Assembly: GCA_025774205.1 (NCBI GenBank)
Contig: JALGWK010000128.1
Span: forward strand, 1 to 5,878
DNA from: a bacterium
Lineage (GTDB): Bacteria > Blakebacterota > Blakebacteria > Blakebacterales > Blakebacteraceae
DNA length: 5,878 nucleotides
Reading direction: 5' to 3'
Below are positions 1 through 5,878 of this stretch, piece by piece (positions within the stretch are counted from its first letter, which is position 1; each line of letters begins with the position of its first letter). Position numbers and translations under genes: made by a program. Under the pieces are notes generated by a model. The model searched no databases, had not been told where the DNA came from, and was given only the letters and a program-made list of their open reading frames with translations.

Positions 1-492
1 GCGGCGATGAATACGGTCGATCAGGGACTCATACCACTCAGCCGGGTCTGTTATCTCGGACCGCAGGACATCCTGTTCCGGCGGAACGGTTCCCTGACCA
101 TGCCGGCGTGGGAGTTGCCGGACTTTGTCCGTCCCGAACAGGTCGGCTTCTATACCCATAACGGCAATGGCGATTCGAGTGAGAACAACCATCGCTGGTT
201 CTACCTCGGCGGTGAACTCGATGGCGACCTTGTCCGGGGGGGGATCGGCGGCCTCGGGCCTTTTGCGGTTCTGGCTGATACAACCCGGCCTGAACTCAGG
301 CTCCTTTCGCCGCGGGATGGAGCCGTCCTTACCAGTGGCCGGCCCCGGATACAGTTCGAACTCGACGACAACGCCACCGGGATCTCCAACGAATCGCAGA
401 TCGTCCTCCGACTGAACGGAACCCGTATCGTGGCGCAGTACGATCCCCAGCCGCACGCATCAACAGCCGGTTTACAGTACAATCACACGATC
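1..492 (+). CDS. C-terminal Ig-like part of a probable secreted protein (5'-truncated, no stop, in frame with selB)
   Basis: The frame is open from the first base of the window, so the ATG at 7 is probably internal and the real start lies to the left. The translated part has a region (about residues 28-90, counted from that ATG) with the pattern 'LTMPAWELP...VGFYTH...WFYLGG...LGPFAVLADTT', then an Ig-like module opening with 'PELRLLSPRDGAVL', followed by 'PRIQFELDDNATGI' and 'LRLNGTRIVAQYDPQ'. From family memory, this order (a beta-sandwich ending in FA-LADTTPP, then an Ig-like domain with an LDG...EYDP strand) is typical of the C-terminal tails of secreted M23-type peptidases in uncultivated bacteria. 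The catalytic part, if any, is outside the window. No stop occurs before selB, so a gene caller will report one ORF through 2430. Function is inferred; the reading frame itself is convincing because adjacent frames give no recognisable protein. Confidence 0.6.
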
Positions 493-2430
493 ATGGACGG
501 TAAGTCGAAGCATCTCCTTATCGGTACCGCCGGTCACGTGGATCACGGCAAGACCGCGCTGATCGGCGCCCTCACCGGTGTCGACACCGATCGCCTTGAG
601 GAAGAACACGACCGGGGGATCAGTATCGTCCTCGGATTTGCTGCCTACCAGCCGATGAGCGAACTTGACGCCCAGGTAGGGATCATCGACGTACCGGGCC
701 ATGAACGCTTCATCAAGACGATGGTGGCCGGGGCGACGGGTGTGGATGTTGCCCTCTTTGTGATCGCCGCCGACGAGAGCGTGAAACCGCAGACCCTCGA
801 GCACCTGGATATTCTCACCCTGCTGGGGGTCGAGCACGGTGTGATCGCGCTGACCAAGGTCGACCTGGTCGAGGATCACGAACTGGTTGAACTGGTCACC
901 GAGGAGGTCAAGGACCTCGTCGCCGGAACCTTCCTGGCCGGTGCACCGATCGTGCCGGTCTCGGCCATCTCGGGCGAGGGACTCGATACGTTGCGGGGCG
1001 AACTCGAAGCGCTACTCTCGATGATCCCCGAGCGGACCACCGGAGCCGGTTTCCGACTCCCGATCGACCGGTCATTCTCGATCAAGGGGATCGGTACCGT
1101 TGTCACCGGCAGTGTTTGGACCGGTGGTGTGAAGGTGGGCGATCCGCTCGAGATCCAGCCATCCGGCATCTCAACCCGGGTACGCGAAATACAGCAGCAC
1201 GGCGAATCAGCCAAGCAGACGGCCCCCGGAACCCGGACTGCCGTGGCGATCCACTCGGTCCCGGTAAGTGAGGCAATTCCCGGTTCCTGGCTGGTCTCGC
1301 CGAAGAGCATCCAGCCAACCAGGACGGTCGATCTCCAGATCGATTACCTGAAGAGCGCTCCCGGTCCGCTGAAGCACAACCAGCGGGTGAGGATCCATCA
1401 CGGGACGAAGGAGACCTTCGGGCGGCTGCGCCTCCTGGGAATCGATGCCTTCCTGCCGGGTGATGAGGGATTCGCCCAGCTCCACCTGGAGGAACCGCTG
1501 GTAGCGGTGGTGGGAGACCGGATCCTCATCCGTCAGTACAGCCCCATGCGAACTATCGCTGGCGCGACCATCCTCGATATCAATCCCACCCGGCATCGTC
1601 GGAGTGATGAGGGCGCCCTCAAGCGGCTCGAAGTCCGTGCCCAGGGTGATCCTCTCGAGATCGTCTCATCGATGGTCTCTGACGCGGGTCTCCCCGGGGT
1701 GGCACTGAAAGAGGCGGTCAGGCGCGCGTCATTGAGCCTGGAGCAGCTGCGTGAGGAGGCAGAAGATCAGGCCTGGCGTGTTCTCGCGGATCGAATCGTT
1801 GACGGTGACCGGATCGATCAGGCGGTCGGACAGGTTTCCGGCGACCTCGAAGCCCAGCATGCCGCGCATCCCCTCAAACGCGGCCTCTCGTCGGAGGAGA
1901 TCGCTTCGAATCTCAGGCTACCTGCCGGGGGAACGGTCCTCGAAGTGATTCTGTCACAGGCCGAAGGTGACGGACTCATCGAGAGGGATCCACCATTCTG
2001 GCGGCTGAACGGCTTCAAAGTCACCTTCGAGGGCTCCTTCGGGGAGGCTCTGTCGGAGATCACCACGACTTCGGAGGCCCGCGACATCACTCCCCTCAAC
2101 CAGTCCGAACTCGAGGAACTCGTCGCGGCGGCCATGTCGAAAGCAGGGATATCGGGAAGTGATACCGGTGAACTGATCGATGCCCTCATCCACCAGGAAC
2201 GATTGATCAGGTATCCGGGCGGATTCTTCCAGAGCGCGAAGGGGCATCAGAAACTGATCTCTCTGTTGAAACAGCACTTCGAAGACCATGAATCGCTCTC
2301 CGTCCCTGAATTCAGGGATCTGACCAGCGGTCTGACCCGGAAATACGTGATCCCTATCCTGGAGTACATGGATGGCGCGGGTGTCACGACCCGGGAAGGT
2401 GACGTCAGGCTCCCCGGCCCCTCGATGTAA
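493..2430 (+). CDS. selB: Selenocysteine-specific translation elongation factor SelB
   Basis: SelB is a GTPase that carries selenocysteyl-tRNA to the ribosome and recognises the SECIS hairpin in selenoprotein mRNA, so UGA is read as selenocysteine. Numbered from the ATG at 493 (645 residues, normal for SelB): G1 GHVDHGKT at 14-21, switch I 'DRGISI' near 40-45, G3 DVPGHE at 66-71, G4 TKVD at 121-124 and G5 SAIS at 157-160. Beta-barrel domain 2 follows with 'LPIDRSFSIKGIGTVVTGS' (about 189-207), then domain 3. The C-terminal half has the SelB winged-helix repeats, ending in the diagnostic 'TRKYVIPILEYMDGAGVTTREGDVR'-type element (split here by the 20-residue rule: TRKYVIPILEYMD, then GAGVTTREGDVR). 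EF-Tu lacks this extension. I chose this start because SelB proteins begin a few residues before KHLLIGTAGHVDHGKT. There is no Shine-Dalgarno upstream and the frame continues to the left edge, so an N-terminally fused product is equally allowed. Confidence 0.93.
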   Translation: MDGKSKHLLIGTAGHVDHGKTALIGALTGVDTDRLEEEHDRGISIVLGFAAYQPMSELDAQVGIIDVPGHERFIKTMVAGATGVDVALFVIAADESVKPQTLEHLDILTLLGVEHGVIALTKVDLVEDHELVELVTEEVKDLVAGTFLAGAPIVPVSAISGEGLDTLRGELEALLSMIPERTTGAGFRLPIDRSFSIKGIGTVVTGSVWTGGVKVGDPLEIQPSGISTRVREIQQHGESAKQTAPGTRTAVAIHSVPVSEAIPGSWLVSPKSIQPTRTVDLQIDYLKSAPGPLKHNQRVRIHHGTKETFGRLRLLGIDAFLPGDEGFAQLHLEEPLVAVVGDRILIRQYSPMRTIAGATILDINPTRHRRSDEGALKRLEVRAQGDPLEIVSSMVSDAGLPGVALKEAVRRASLSLEQLREEAEDQAWRVLADRIVDGDRIDQAVGQVSGDLEAQHAAHPLKRGLSSEEIASNLRLPAGGTVLEVILSQAEGDGLIERDPPFWRLNGFKVTFEGSFGEALSEITTTSEARDITPLNQSELEELVAAAMSKAGISGSDTGELIDALIHQERLIRYPGGFFQSAKGHQKLISLLKQHFEDHESLSVPEFRDLTSGLTRKYVIPILEYMDGAGVTTREGDVRLPGPSM

Positions 2431-2501: not shown

Positions 2502-3176
2502 ATGCGCGTTCCCATCCTCACTGATCTCCTGGACCTCTTCTTCCCCCGGGAATGTCCGGCCTGTGAAGAATTCATGCGGGATGAGGATCTCATGACGGGA
2601 TCTCTCGTCTGTCAGATCTGTCTCTCCAGACTTGCCGGCCTGCGGCTGCCGCCGGAGGTGGTGAGGGTCCTCGACCTGCCGGTCCTGTCGGCCTGGGACT
2701 ATGCCAACCCCCTCGATCGGATCATCCCGGTGGCGAAAGCGAAGAACCAGCCGCGGCTCTTCGACCACCTGGCAGGCGGCATGGTGACCGCGCTCCGGGA
2801 GGCCGGACTGATAGATTACCCGCGGCTGATCGTTCCGGTGCCGCTCCATCCGTCCCGACGCAGAGAACGGGGTTTCGACCAGGCGTTCCGGCTGGCCAGC
2901 TCGGTCGGCGGGATGATCGGTGTGCCGGTGACGAGGCGGGGTCTCAGGCGGATCCGATCGACACCGCCCCAGAAGATGGAGTCGCGGGAGCGCCGGCTCG
3001 AGATCCTCCACGACGCTTTTTCGCCAGGTCATGACGCCGCCCGGATCACCGGTCAGCGCATCATTCTCATCGATGACGTGGTGACGACCGGAGCCACCCT
3101 GGCCGCGGCCGTCCGGGCGCTGCAGCATGCCTCTCCGGCTGGCGTACTCTGTCTGACCGCGGCCCGGACCGGGTAG
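2502..3176 (+). CDS. comF: ComF family protein (phosphoribosyltransferase-like)
   Basis: This 224-residue protein has the full ComFC architecture. An N-terminal zinc-binding module has CPAC at 18-21 and CQIC at 37-40, matching the paired CxxC ribbon of the family. The conserved 'VPVPLHPSRRRERGFDQA' element follows at 111-128, then 'RSTPPQKMESRERR' at 152-165, and finally the PRPP-loop motif 'IILIDDVVTTGATL' at 187-200, which includes the DD pair and TTGAT phosphate-binding turn. ComFC/GntX proteins are cytoplasmic; in competent bacteria ComF is needed for handling incoming single-stranded DNA, but family members also occur in bacteria with no known competence, so the label alone does not show transformation. 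The start at 2502 leaves a normal short lead of 17 residues before the first CxxC. It lies 71 nt after selB and 148 nt before gap, and has no visible functional tie to either. Confidence 0.92.
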   Translation: MRVPILTDLLDLFFPRECPACEEFMRDEDLMTGSLVCQICLSRLAGLRLPPEVVRVLDLPVLSAWDYANPLDRIIPVAKAKNQPRLFDHLAGGMVTALREAGLIDYPRLIVPVPLHPSRRRERGFDQAFRLASSVGGMIGVPVTRRGLRRIRSTPPQKMESRERRLEILHDAFSPGHDAARITGQRIILIDDVVTTGATLAAAVRALQHASPAGVLCLTAARTG

Positions 3177-3183
3177 TGCCACT

Positions 3184-3199
3184 GGGACCCGTGGTTCCC
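3184..3199 (+). terminator. Weak hairpin after comF, possible terminator
   Basis: GGGACC at 3184-3189 can pair with GGTTCCC at 3193-3199, leaving one bulged T and a three-base loop, seven bases after the comF stop. No T-tract follows, so it is not a standard intrinsic terminator. It may help end the comF transcript, or protect its 3' end, only together with other signals. Confidence 0.25.
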
Positions 3200-3218
3200 T
3201 GGGGAGAATCATAAATCG

Positions 3219-3236
3219 GCCTTCTGAGTAGAAGGC
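3219..3236. repeat. Perfect 7-bp inverted repeat upstream of gap
   Basis: GCCTTCT at 3219-3225 and AGAAGGC at 3230-3236 are exact reverse complements around a GAGT centre. As RNA it would form a four-base-loop hairpin, but no T-tract follows. As DNA it is a dyad lying over the proposed -35 region of the gap promoter, where a repressor operator could sit. The two readings cannot be separated from sequence alone. Confidence 0.55.
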
Positions 3237-3250
3237 GCTGCATTTATACT
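3222..3250 (+). promoter_or_regulatory. Possible sigma-70-type promoter for gap-pgk-tpiA
   Basis: TATACT at 3245-3250 matches the -10 consensus at five of six bases. Seventeen bases upstream, TTCTGA at 3222-3227 matches the -35 consensus at only three of six. Transcription would begin near 3257, giving a leader of roughly 68 nt before the gap start codon. This is the most AT-rich stretch in the comF-gap gap, which favours it, but the -35 is poor and the -10 call rests on one hexamer. Confidence 0.35.
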
Positions 3251-3282
3251 ACCCCTGCATCACCCCTCATCCATTCACATAC
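3241..3282 (+). other. C-rich, nearly G-free leader upstream of gap
   Basis: Within 3241-3280 I count 17 C and one G, a strong departure from the G-rich surroundings. It contains ACCCCT twice, at 3251-3256 and 3262-3267, an 11-nt period. Such C-over-G stretches are the usual character of Rho loading (rut) sites, so this may serve Rho-dependent termination of the comF transcript or attenuation ahead of gap. The composition is seen; the role is inferred. Confidence 0.4.
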
Positions 3283-3284
3283 GA

Positions 3285-3316
3285 GCCGGGGGATCGAGTC
3301 CCGGCAGCCCAAGGAG
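3285..3316 (+). promoter_or_regulatory. gap 5' leader: hairpin followed by strong Shine-Dalgarno
   Basis: GCCGGG at 3285-3290 pairs exactly with CCCGGC at 3300-3305 around a nine-base loop. Five bases later comes AAGGAG at 3311-3316, eight bases before the gap ATG: the best ribosome-binding site in the window and the reason for choosing the start at 3325. The hairpin leaves the Shine-Dalgarno free, so it could stabilise the mRNA 5' region or be part of a regulatory leader. Confidence 0.55.
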
Positions 3317-3324
3317 TAACGGGA

Positions 3325-4323
3325 ATGAGTATTCGTATCGGCATCAACGGATTCGGACGCATCGGAAGACTGGTTTTCCGGGCAGGCTGCGGACGCGACG
3401 GATATGAGTTCGTGGCTGTCAACGACATCAGTGATCCTGCCACCATGGCACACCTGCTCAAGTACGACTCGGTCCACGGTCGTTTCCAGGGCTCGATCGA
3501 ATCCACCGATGAGGGCTTCCTCATCAATGGCTCACCGGTGAAGGTTCTGAGTGAGCGCGATCCCGGCGCCCTGCCGTGGGGTGACCTGGGAGTCGATGTC
3601 GTCGTCGAGGCGACCGGGATCTTCCGGAAGCCGGAAGAAATCCAGAAACACCTCGATGCCGGCGCGTCGAAGGTCGTGCTGACCGTGCCTCCGAAGGGCG
3701 ATCTGGACGCAATGGTGGTGCTGGGAGTGAATGATGATGTACTGACTCCCGATGTGAAAACCGTCTCGAACGCCTCCTGCACGACGAACTGCGTCGCGCC
3801 GATGGCGAAGGTGCTGCACGATGCCTTCGGGATTCAGCACGGCGTGATGAATACGATCCACGCTTATACCAATGACCAGCGGATCCTCGACCTGGTCCAC
3901 TCCGATCTCCGCCGGGCGCGGGCCGCAGCCATCAACATGATCCCGACCACGACCGGAGCCGCGCGGTCAGTCGGCAAAATCATTCCTGATCTCGACGGCA
4001 AGCTCGACGGTCTTTCCCTCAGGGTCCCGGTACCTGCGGGATCGATCGTGGACCTGGTCGCGACCCTCGGTGAGGACGTCACCATCGAGAGCGTGAACGC
4101 CGCCTTCAAGGCCGCTGCCGACGGCGGACTGAACGGGTACCTGGAGTACTCCGATGAGCCGCTCGTCTCGAGTGACATCGTCGGCAACCCGCACTCCTGC
4201 ATCTTCGACAGCCTCGCCACCATGGTCATCGGCGGGAACCTCGTGAAGATCCTCGGCTGGTACGATAACGAGTGGGGTTACAGCAACCGGGTGGTCGATC
4301 TGGTCGGCCTGATCGCCGGGTGA
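3325..4323 (+). CDS. gap: Type I glyceraldehyde-3-phosphate dehydrogenase
   Basis: The enzyme oxidises and phosphorylates glyceraldehyde 3-phosphate to 1,3-bisphosphoglycerate with NAD in the cytoplasm. The 332-residue length is normal. The Rossmann NAD-binding domain opens with INGFGRIGR (7-15) and 'AVNDISD' (31-37). The active site SNASCTTNC (148-156) carries catalytic Cys152, and 'TIHAYTNDQ' (177-185) carries the base His179. 'SDLRRARAAAINMIPTTTGAA' spans about 193-213 and binds phosphate and substrate. The C terminus has 'WYDNEWGYSNRVVDL' (312-326). Where NAD-dependent enzymes usually have Leu-Pro before H-x-DLRR, this protein has Leu190-Val191, a small departure in a position linked to cofactor preference; NAD remains the likely cofactor. 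It has a strong Shine-Dalgarno and is followed 20 nt later by pgk, whose product uses its product, so the two are almost certainly one operon. Confidence 0.98.
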   Translation: MSIRIGINGFGRIGRLVFRAGCGRDGYEFVAVNDISDPATMAHLLKYDSVHGRFQGSIESTDEGFLINGSPVKVLSERDPGALPWGDLGVDVVVEATGIFRKPEEIQKHLDAGASKVVLTVPPKGDLDAMVVLGVNDDVLTPDVKTVSNASCTTNCVAPMAKVLHDAFGIQHGVMNTIHAYTNDQRILDLVHSDLRRARAAAINMIPTTTGAARSVGKIIPDLDGKLDGLSLRVPVPAGSIVDLVATLGEDVTIESVNAAFKAAADGGLNGYLEYSDEPLVSSDIVGNPHSCIFDSLATMVIGGNLVKILGWYDNEWGYSNRVVDLVGLIAG

Positions 4324-4331
4324 CCTGAAAC

Positions 4332-4340
4332 GGTGGTGGA
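4332..4340 (+). promoter_or_regulatory. pgk ribosome-binding site
   Basis: The spacer between gap and pgk holds two overlapping purine-rich near-matches, GGTGG at 4332-4336 and GGTGGA at 4335-4340, seven and three bases from the ATG at 4344. The match is weaker than at gap or tpiA. With a 20-nt spacer, ribosomes finishing gap may supply much of the initiation. Confidence 0.45.
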
Positions 4341-4343
4341 CTG

Positions 4344-5552
4344 ATGGCGTTCAACAAACTCACGATTGATGATATCGAGGTCGGCGGTCGTCGCGTCCTG
4401 ATGCGGGTGGATTTCAATGTTCCGCTCAAGGATGGTGCGGTTGCTGACGATACGCGTATCAATGCCTCGCTGCCCACGATCCGCTCCCTGCTCGATCGGG
4501 GAGCGCGCGTCATCCTGATGAGCCACCTGGGGAGGCCGAAAGGCGAACGCGTCACCGCGATGAGTCTCCAGCCTGTCGCCGGCAGGCTCGAGGAACTCCT
4601 CGGCTCTCCGGTCGCCTTCGTGGAGGATATCCACGGGGAGCGCGCGGTGGCTGCCGTGGAGGCCCTGGACGACGGTGAAGTTCTGCTGCTGGAGAACCTG
4701 CGGTTCGATCCGGGTGAAGAGGCGAACGATACGGCGTTCTCCGAAGCGCTGTCCGGCCTTGGTGAGGTCTATGTGAATGACGCCTTCGGGTCGGCGCATC
4801 GCGCGCATGCCTCTACCGCCGGTGTCACCAGGCAGTTCGAACGGTGCGTGGCGGGGTACCTGATGGCTCGTGAGCTGGAGTACCTCGGCAACGCTCTGGC
4901 CGATCCAGCCCGACCGTTCGTGGCGATCCTGGGGGGAGCGAAGATCAGCGGAAAGATCGACGTGATCGCCGCCCTCCGCTGGAAAGTGGATCACATTCTC
5001 ATCGGGGGTGGCATGGCCTTCACCTTTCTGGCAGCACGTGAGGCCAGGATCGGCAAGAGCCTGGTGGATGAGGAACGCATCGAAATGGCGGGTAACCTGC
5101 TCGAGGCCGCGGCCAGGGGAGAAGGGGCTCCGCTTCACCTGCCGCTCGACGCGGTTGTGGCCGCGAAGCTGGAACCGGGCCAGGAGACGCAGACGGTGCC
5201 CGCCGATGCCATTCCGGGGGATATGGCAGGCTACGATATCGGCCGGCAGACACTCGACCAGTGGCAGGAACTCCTCACCGGAGCGCAGACGATCGTCTGG
5301 AACGGACCCGTGGGTGTCTTCGAGATCCCTCCGTTTGATGAAGGGACCACCGGGGTTGCCCATATGATTGCCGAAGAGACCGACCGGGGGGCCGTCAGTA
5401 TCATCGGCGGTGGAGACTCGGCCGCCGCGATCGCCAGGATCGGGATGACCGACAAGATCAGTCATGTATCCACGGGTGGCGGGGCAAGTCTTGAGTTTCT
5501 GGAGGGTAACGAGCTTCCCGGAGTATCAGTATTGACTGATAAAGAGCAATAA
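4344..5552 (+). CDS. pgk: Phosphoglycerate kinase
   Basis: The enzyme transfers the acyl phosphate of 1,3-bisphosphoglycerate to ADP, giving 3-phosphoglycerate and ATP; it acts in the cytoplasm directly after GAPDH. The 402 residues cover the whole two-domain fold. N-terminal substrate-binding elements are RVDFNVP (21-27), Arg38 in [13 protein letters not shown] (60-67), LENLRF (116-121) and [13 protein letters not shown] (145-157, with Arg153). The nucleotide-binding domain has GGAKISGK (197-204, with Lys200 and Lys204), GGGMAFTF (221-228), WNGPVGVFE (319-327), GGGDSAAA (355-362) and [12 protein letters not shown] (377-388). No key residue is missing. The start at 4344 puts the first motif at the usual distance from the N terminus. 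It follows gap by 20 nt and precedes tpiA by 19 nt. A long open frame opposite it on the minus strand is a codon-usage shadow. Confidence 0.98.
5524..5541. repeat. 7-bp inverted repeat inside the 3' end of pgk
   Basis: TATCAGT at 5524-5530 and ACTGATA at 5535-5541 are exact reverse complements around ATTG, overlapping the codons for the last ten or so residues of Pgk. The stem is AU-rich and hence weak. It lies about 20 nt before the tpiA Shine-Dalgarno, so it could affect mRNA processing or tpiA expression, or be chance in an AT-rich pocket. Confidence 0.45.
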
Positions 5553-5555
5553 CAT

Positions 5556-5571
5556 CTAATAAGGACTAATA
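5556..5571 (+). promoter_or_regulatory. tpiA ribosome-binding site framed by CTAATA repeats
   Basis: CTAATA at 5556-5561 and again at 5566-5571 flank AGGA at 5562-5565. Together with the preceding A this gives AAGGA, six bases before the tpiA ATG, a good Shine-Dalgarno in an unusually AT-rich and thus unfolded stretch. It supports the start at 5572. Confidence 0.6.
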
Positions 5572-5878
5572 ATGCGCAGATATATCATCGCCGGTAACTG
5601 GAAGATGCACACCTCGCGGGAAGAAGCGGCGGCCCTGGCCCGATCGCTCGTACCGATGGTCTCCGATATCTTCAAGACCGACATCGTGCTCTGCCCGCCG
5701 TTCACGGCGCTCGGAAGGGTGGAGAAGGTGCTCGAGGGGACCGGCATCAAGCTGGGAGCCCAGAACATGTACCACGCGGAGAAGGGGGCCTTCACCGGCG
5801 AGATCTCACTGAACATGCTGAAGGATGTTGGCGTCAGTCACGTTATTGTTGGCCATTCCGAGCGACGGCAGTACTTTA
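5572..5878 (+). CDS. tpiA: Triose-phosphate isomerase (N-terminal 102 codons, cut by window edge)
   Basis: The enzyme interconverts dihydroxyacetone phosphate and glyceraldehyde 3-phosphate, supplying the substrate of Gap. The visible part is the first two fifths of the TIM barrel. It starts with 'RYIIAGNWKMH', placing substrate-binding Asn9 and Lys11 at their usual places, continues with 'VLCPPFTAL' (39-47), LGAQN (61-65) and 'GAFTGEIS' (72-79), and reaches VGHSERRQYF (93-102) with the catalytic electrophile His95. The numbering agrees closely with the canonical enzyme, which supports the chosen start. The catalytic glutamate and flexible loop 6 lie beyond the right edge. It sits 19 nt after pgk with a good Shine-Dalgarno and is the third gene of the operon. 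In many bacteria secG follows tpiA, but that is outside the window. Confidence 0.97.
   Translation, partial: MRRYIIAGNWKMHTSREEAAALARSLVPMVSDIFKTDIVLCPPFTALGRVEKVLEGTGIKLGAQNMYHAEKGAFTGEISLNMLKDVGVSHVIVGHSERRQYF

Follow-up and report, generated by a model that had tools for sequence, protein, structure and literature searches.

The window analyzed here is a stretch of 5878 bases, the first part of the 6750-base contig C389 in draft genome G000, and it carries a long open frame that joins the last part of an M23 peptidase gene to selB. This frame is very probably the product of two ordinary, neighboring and overlapping genes that have been run together through 88 missing bases, either by a recent deletion or by an assembly error. 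In the normal state, the peptidase gene and selB would share 11 bases, so placed that the peptidase stop falls just inside selB. Loss of 88 bases close to its 3′ end would let the peptidase gene bypass its stop and continue in the frame of selB, creating an accidental frame of 1431 codons, while SelB itself would be made from its own ATG at position 493. The gap would be recent, if it is not an error of assembly. The features to which we refer are as follows.

1..450, + strand: 3′ part of the M23 peptidase gene (C-terminal region and first half of the Ig-like domain), assigned from the overlap with contig C68 and the continuous frame
451..455, + strand: junction, 5 bases where the relative has 93, from BLASTN segments and anchors
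456..503, + strand: remnant of the 3′ end of the peptidase gene in its old frame, RINSRFTVQSHDHGR, with TAA at 501–503, untranslated in the fused frame; from comparison with the sister gene
493..503, + strand: ATGGACGGTAA, the selB start codon overlapping the old stop of the peptidase by 11 bases, in the same layout as ATGGACGATAA of the sister; from comparison with the sister
493..2430, + strand: selB, complete, 645 codons from ATG 493, from a TIGR00475 match above cut-off and comparison with the sister

An open frame from an M23 peptidase into SelB

ORF reading gives bases 1–2430 as a single stop-free frame of 809 codons that is open at the left edge. An earlier note on this DNA had described an uninterrupted frame running from that edge into a complete SelB, and the profile searches bear this out: the TIGR00475 selB profile matches with 341.5 bits (cut-off of 242.25), and the EF-Tu GTPase (PF00009), SelB β-barrel (PF25461), and winged-helix 3 (PF09107) domains all score above their Pfam cut-offs, with a further winged helix, PF09106, falling just under (21.6 vs. 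22.3). The protein resembles other bacterial SelBs in its G-domain motifs (GHVDHGKT, DVPGHE, and TKVD), its β-barrel and C-terminal winged helices, and in having selA, selD, and tRNA-Sec as companions in the same genome. It differs solely in the accidental upstream extension of its open frame, the native start presumably being ATG 493. Downstream, at 2502–5878, the window holds a phosphoribosyltransferase-like (ComF-type) ORF, gapA, pgk, and the start of tpiA, all named by eye.

The left part of the frame is less readily recognized. In a Pfam search, its 164 codons gave one sub-threshold Ig match only (Big_7, E-value of 0.055). However, bases 1–114 of the window exactly match the final 114 bases of contig C68 (4852–4965) of the same genome, and the last ORF of that contig, 660 codons long, enters the window in the same frame. 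The two contig ends thus share an exact 114-base overlap inside the peptidase gene that was left unjoined in the assembly. When C68 and C389 are joined, one frame of 1431 codons extends from the start of the peptidase to the end of SelB. We base this join on the exact overlap and on the continuity of the sister gene, not on reads; it is supported by the peptidase gene of a same-genus relative, G001, which is likewise split over two contigs (C264 and C262) and is continuous across the corresponding point. In that genome, the end of C264 (L049) and the start of C262 (L046) align over 298 bases with a score that implies approximately 13 mismatches, which looks like strain variation.

The ORF on C68 contains an M23 domain (PF01551) at 53.2 bits, well above the cut-off of 28.7, and begins with a hydrophobic, signal-like N-terminus as judged by eye, so that the peptidase is apparently exported. 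Of the earlier suggestion that the upstream gene encodes a secreted M23 peptidase, the family assignment is thus borne out by a profile match on C68, while secretion is suggested by the appearance of the N-terminus. The Ig-like reading of the left part also stands, on the strength of sub-threshold matches: the complete tail of the sister protein matches BiPBP_C (1.7e-4) and Big_13 (3.3e-4), both below the curated cut-offs. In its M23 domain, its signal-like N-terminus, and its presence in the relative, the gene therefore resembles an M23 peptidase with a C-terminal Ig-like domain. It differs in that 88 bases (approximately 29 codons) are absent before its last 16–18 codons and in that its frame is shifted. 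The window itself lacks a complete Ig-like C-terminal domain, as the domain breaks after DPQ at base 450.

The genes are separate in a relative of the same genus

Our comparison within the genus covers one other genome, G001, in which the corresponding locus lies on contig C262 (JALGVQ010000183.1, from MAG Meg19_1012_Bin_119). A search of the public genome collection for further relatives returned this same record only. The order of genes is that of the window, namely the peptidase tail, selB, a phosphoribosyltransferase-like gene, gap, and pgk. Here, the peptidase and selB are adjacent and separate. The peptidase completes its Ig domain and ends in ...LRLNGTQVVPQYDPQRDRLTWQPREPLEPGEYWLLLEVTDGAGNTGRINSRFTVQSQGNGR with a TAA at 992–994, and selB starts at an ATG at 984 in a different frame, the two genes overlapping by the 11 bases of ATGGACGATAA. 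The earlier note had held that a fusion would be contradicted by relatives in which the upstream gene has a stop of its own ahead of selB, and it is a stop of this kind, placed at selB, that G001 contains.

The 150 peptidase codons at 1–450 align to the sister gene with dN of 0.15 and dS of 1.10, and the two selB genes, whose products are 82% identical, give dN of 0.10 and dS of 1.26. These values indicate that both flanking genes, the peptidase tail and selB, are under purifying selection.

The 88-base gap and the remnant of the old frame

BLASTN aligns window positions 301–450 to sister positions 704–853, and 456–518 to 947–1009. Anchors flanking the site are 17 bases apart in the window versus 105 in G001, for a net loss of 88 bases. 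The break in homology at 451–455 lies somewhat to the left of position 490, near which the junction had previously been placed and close to which we find the selB ATG (493) instead. The junction sequence is clean and without N. Judged from the sequence of the relative, the missing codons fall within the latter half of the Ig-like domain, and the gap splits that domain. Neither protein nor DNA searches found an intact second copy of the missing segment elsewhere in G000. We take the direction of change to be a loss in G000 rather than a gain in G001 from the frame of the remnant and the completeness of the Ig domain in G001.

As 88 cannot be divided evenly by three, the peptidase frame shifts, and it does so into the frame of selB. 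A loss of this kind would lead into that frame about one time in three, and in G001 no stop interrupts the selB frame over the 68 codons that precede the GHVDHGKT motif; the long open frame is therefore unsurprising.

Beyond the junction, the end of the peptidase is still legible in its old frame, reading RINSRFTVQSHDHGR followed by TAA in the window and RINSRFTVQSQGNGR followed by TAA in G001. The first 10 residues of the remnant are identical in the two genomes, and all 4 codon differences among them are synonymous. Over the whole remnant, the old frame renders five of eight codon differences synonymous and the fused frame none of seven, in a small sample drawn from 16 codons. This contrast suggests that the stretch diverged as the peptidase's own end. 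Across the linker, we detect no selection in the fused frame, and that frame appears to have no history of selection.

The overlap also bears on how selB is normally translated. Upstream of selB, pairing to the anti-Shine–Dalgarno sequence is weak in both genomes, which makes coupling to termination of the peptidase plausible. Coupling by termination–reinitiation requires overlaps or very short distances, and the usual overlaps of coupled genes are 4 or 1 bases (PMC10666635). As in such pairs, the stop of the first gene here lies just inside the second. The 11-base overlap is less typical, and in this assembly the stop is no longer in the frame of the peptidase. From this arrangement, we infer that translation of selB is probably coupled to peptidase termination under normal circumstances.

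Deletion or assembly artefact

The proposal in the earlier note that a deletion joined the two genes holds as a description of the sequence, from which 88 bases are missing; whether they are missing from the organism or from the assembly is about an even choice. One account, to which we give slightly less than an even chance, is that the sequenced strain, or part of its population, really did lose the 88 bases recently. The Ig domain of the peptidase would then be cut short, and selB would be without the upstream stop where reinitiation would occur. A young deletion is consistent with the N-free junction, the intact sequence on both sides, and the undecayed remnant, and no long repeat offers an easy route to an assembly error. 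On the other hand, the deletion would probably disturb the only selB that we find, in a genome that has selA, selD, and tRNA-Sec, and no second genome carries it.

The other account, whose probability likewise falls just below one half, is an assembly or chimeric-read artefact, by which the organism has the 88 bases and the draft omits them. G000 is a fragmented draft of 527 contigs (completeness of 85.85%, contamination of 4.84%), and approximately 450 bases separate the site from a contig end that was left unjoined despite its overlap with another contig. Short repeats occur near the junction, such as CAGCCG at 448–453 and 464–469, but we find no large direct repeat there and none of a length that would confuse a k-mer assembler.

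Were the gap real, ribosomes translating the peptidase would produce a peptidase–SelB polypeptide destined for export; functional SelB would then depend on independent initiation at 493. It is improbable that the deletion is both real and fixed, with the peptidase–SelB polypeptide tolerated or processed and SelB also made from ATG 493.

A functional protein in which a peptidase with an Ig-like domain is fused to SelB is more doubtful still, even though the frame is open over all 1431 codons from the peptidase start on C68 to the end of SelB. The genes are separate in G001, the differences in the linker follow the old frame, and an exported N-terminus conflicts with the cytosolic function of SelB. 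The Ig fold is moreover cut in half, for which reason we do not regard the frame as a domain fusion. We accordingly rejected an evolved domain fusion, and with it the genuine Ig–SelB fusion that had been entertained earlier. A programmed frameshift or read-through that linked the genes in an ancestor and was later fixed by fusion is the least credible account: the overlap layout is common to both genomes, but an ordinary gene overlap explains the 11 bases, and inspection by eye, rather than a dedicated search, revealed no evident slippery motif in them.

Two overlapping genes joined through 88 missing bases thus remain our reading of the locus. As a protein, the 1431-codon product matters little. 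The locus illustrates clearly how proteins from opposite compartments can look fused when a draft genome lacks a short stretch of sequence, and one congeneric genome together with the remnant of the old frame was enough to expose the false join. An automatic annotation pipeline could give this SelB a spurious N-terminus.

Selenocysteine machinery and other SelB loci

The surrounding genome encodes SelA (the gene is split over contigs C467 and C490), a tRNA-Sec (65.9 bits, on C455), and SelD, found as gene fragments with an in-frame TGA, and this selB is the single one among the G000 matches. Given SelA, tRNA-Sec, and a TGA-containing SelD, an ordinary working SelB is expected. Among the other SelB loci (L009–L025), the in-frame stretches upstream of the G domain range from 10 to 81 codons, and none contains a recognizable peptidase or Ig-like extension. 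A literature search, confined to titles, returned none that reports a SelB fusion or N-terminal extension.

In-frame TGA codons occur in selD of G001 (L070, C273 7717–8634) and at two loci of G000 (L071 and L074, on C412 and C32, respectively), and the SelD of this genus is therefore probably a selenoprotein itself. A third genome, G003, has a selD with a TGA (L073) as the second of two; its other selD match (L069, C304 1949–2872) lies within an open frame of 741 codons and is possibly a SelD fused to another domain.
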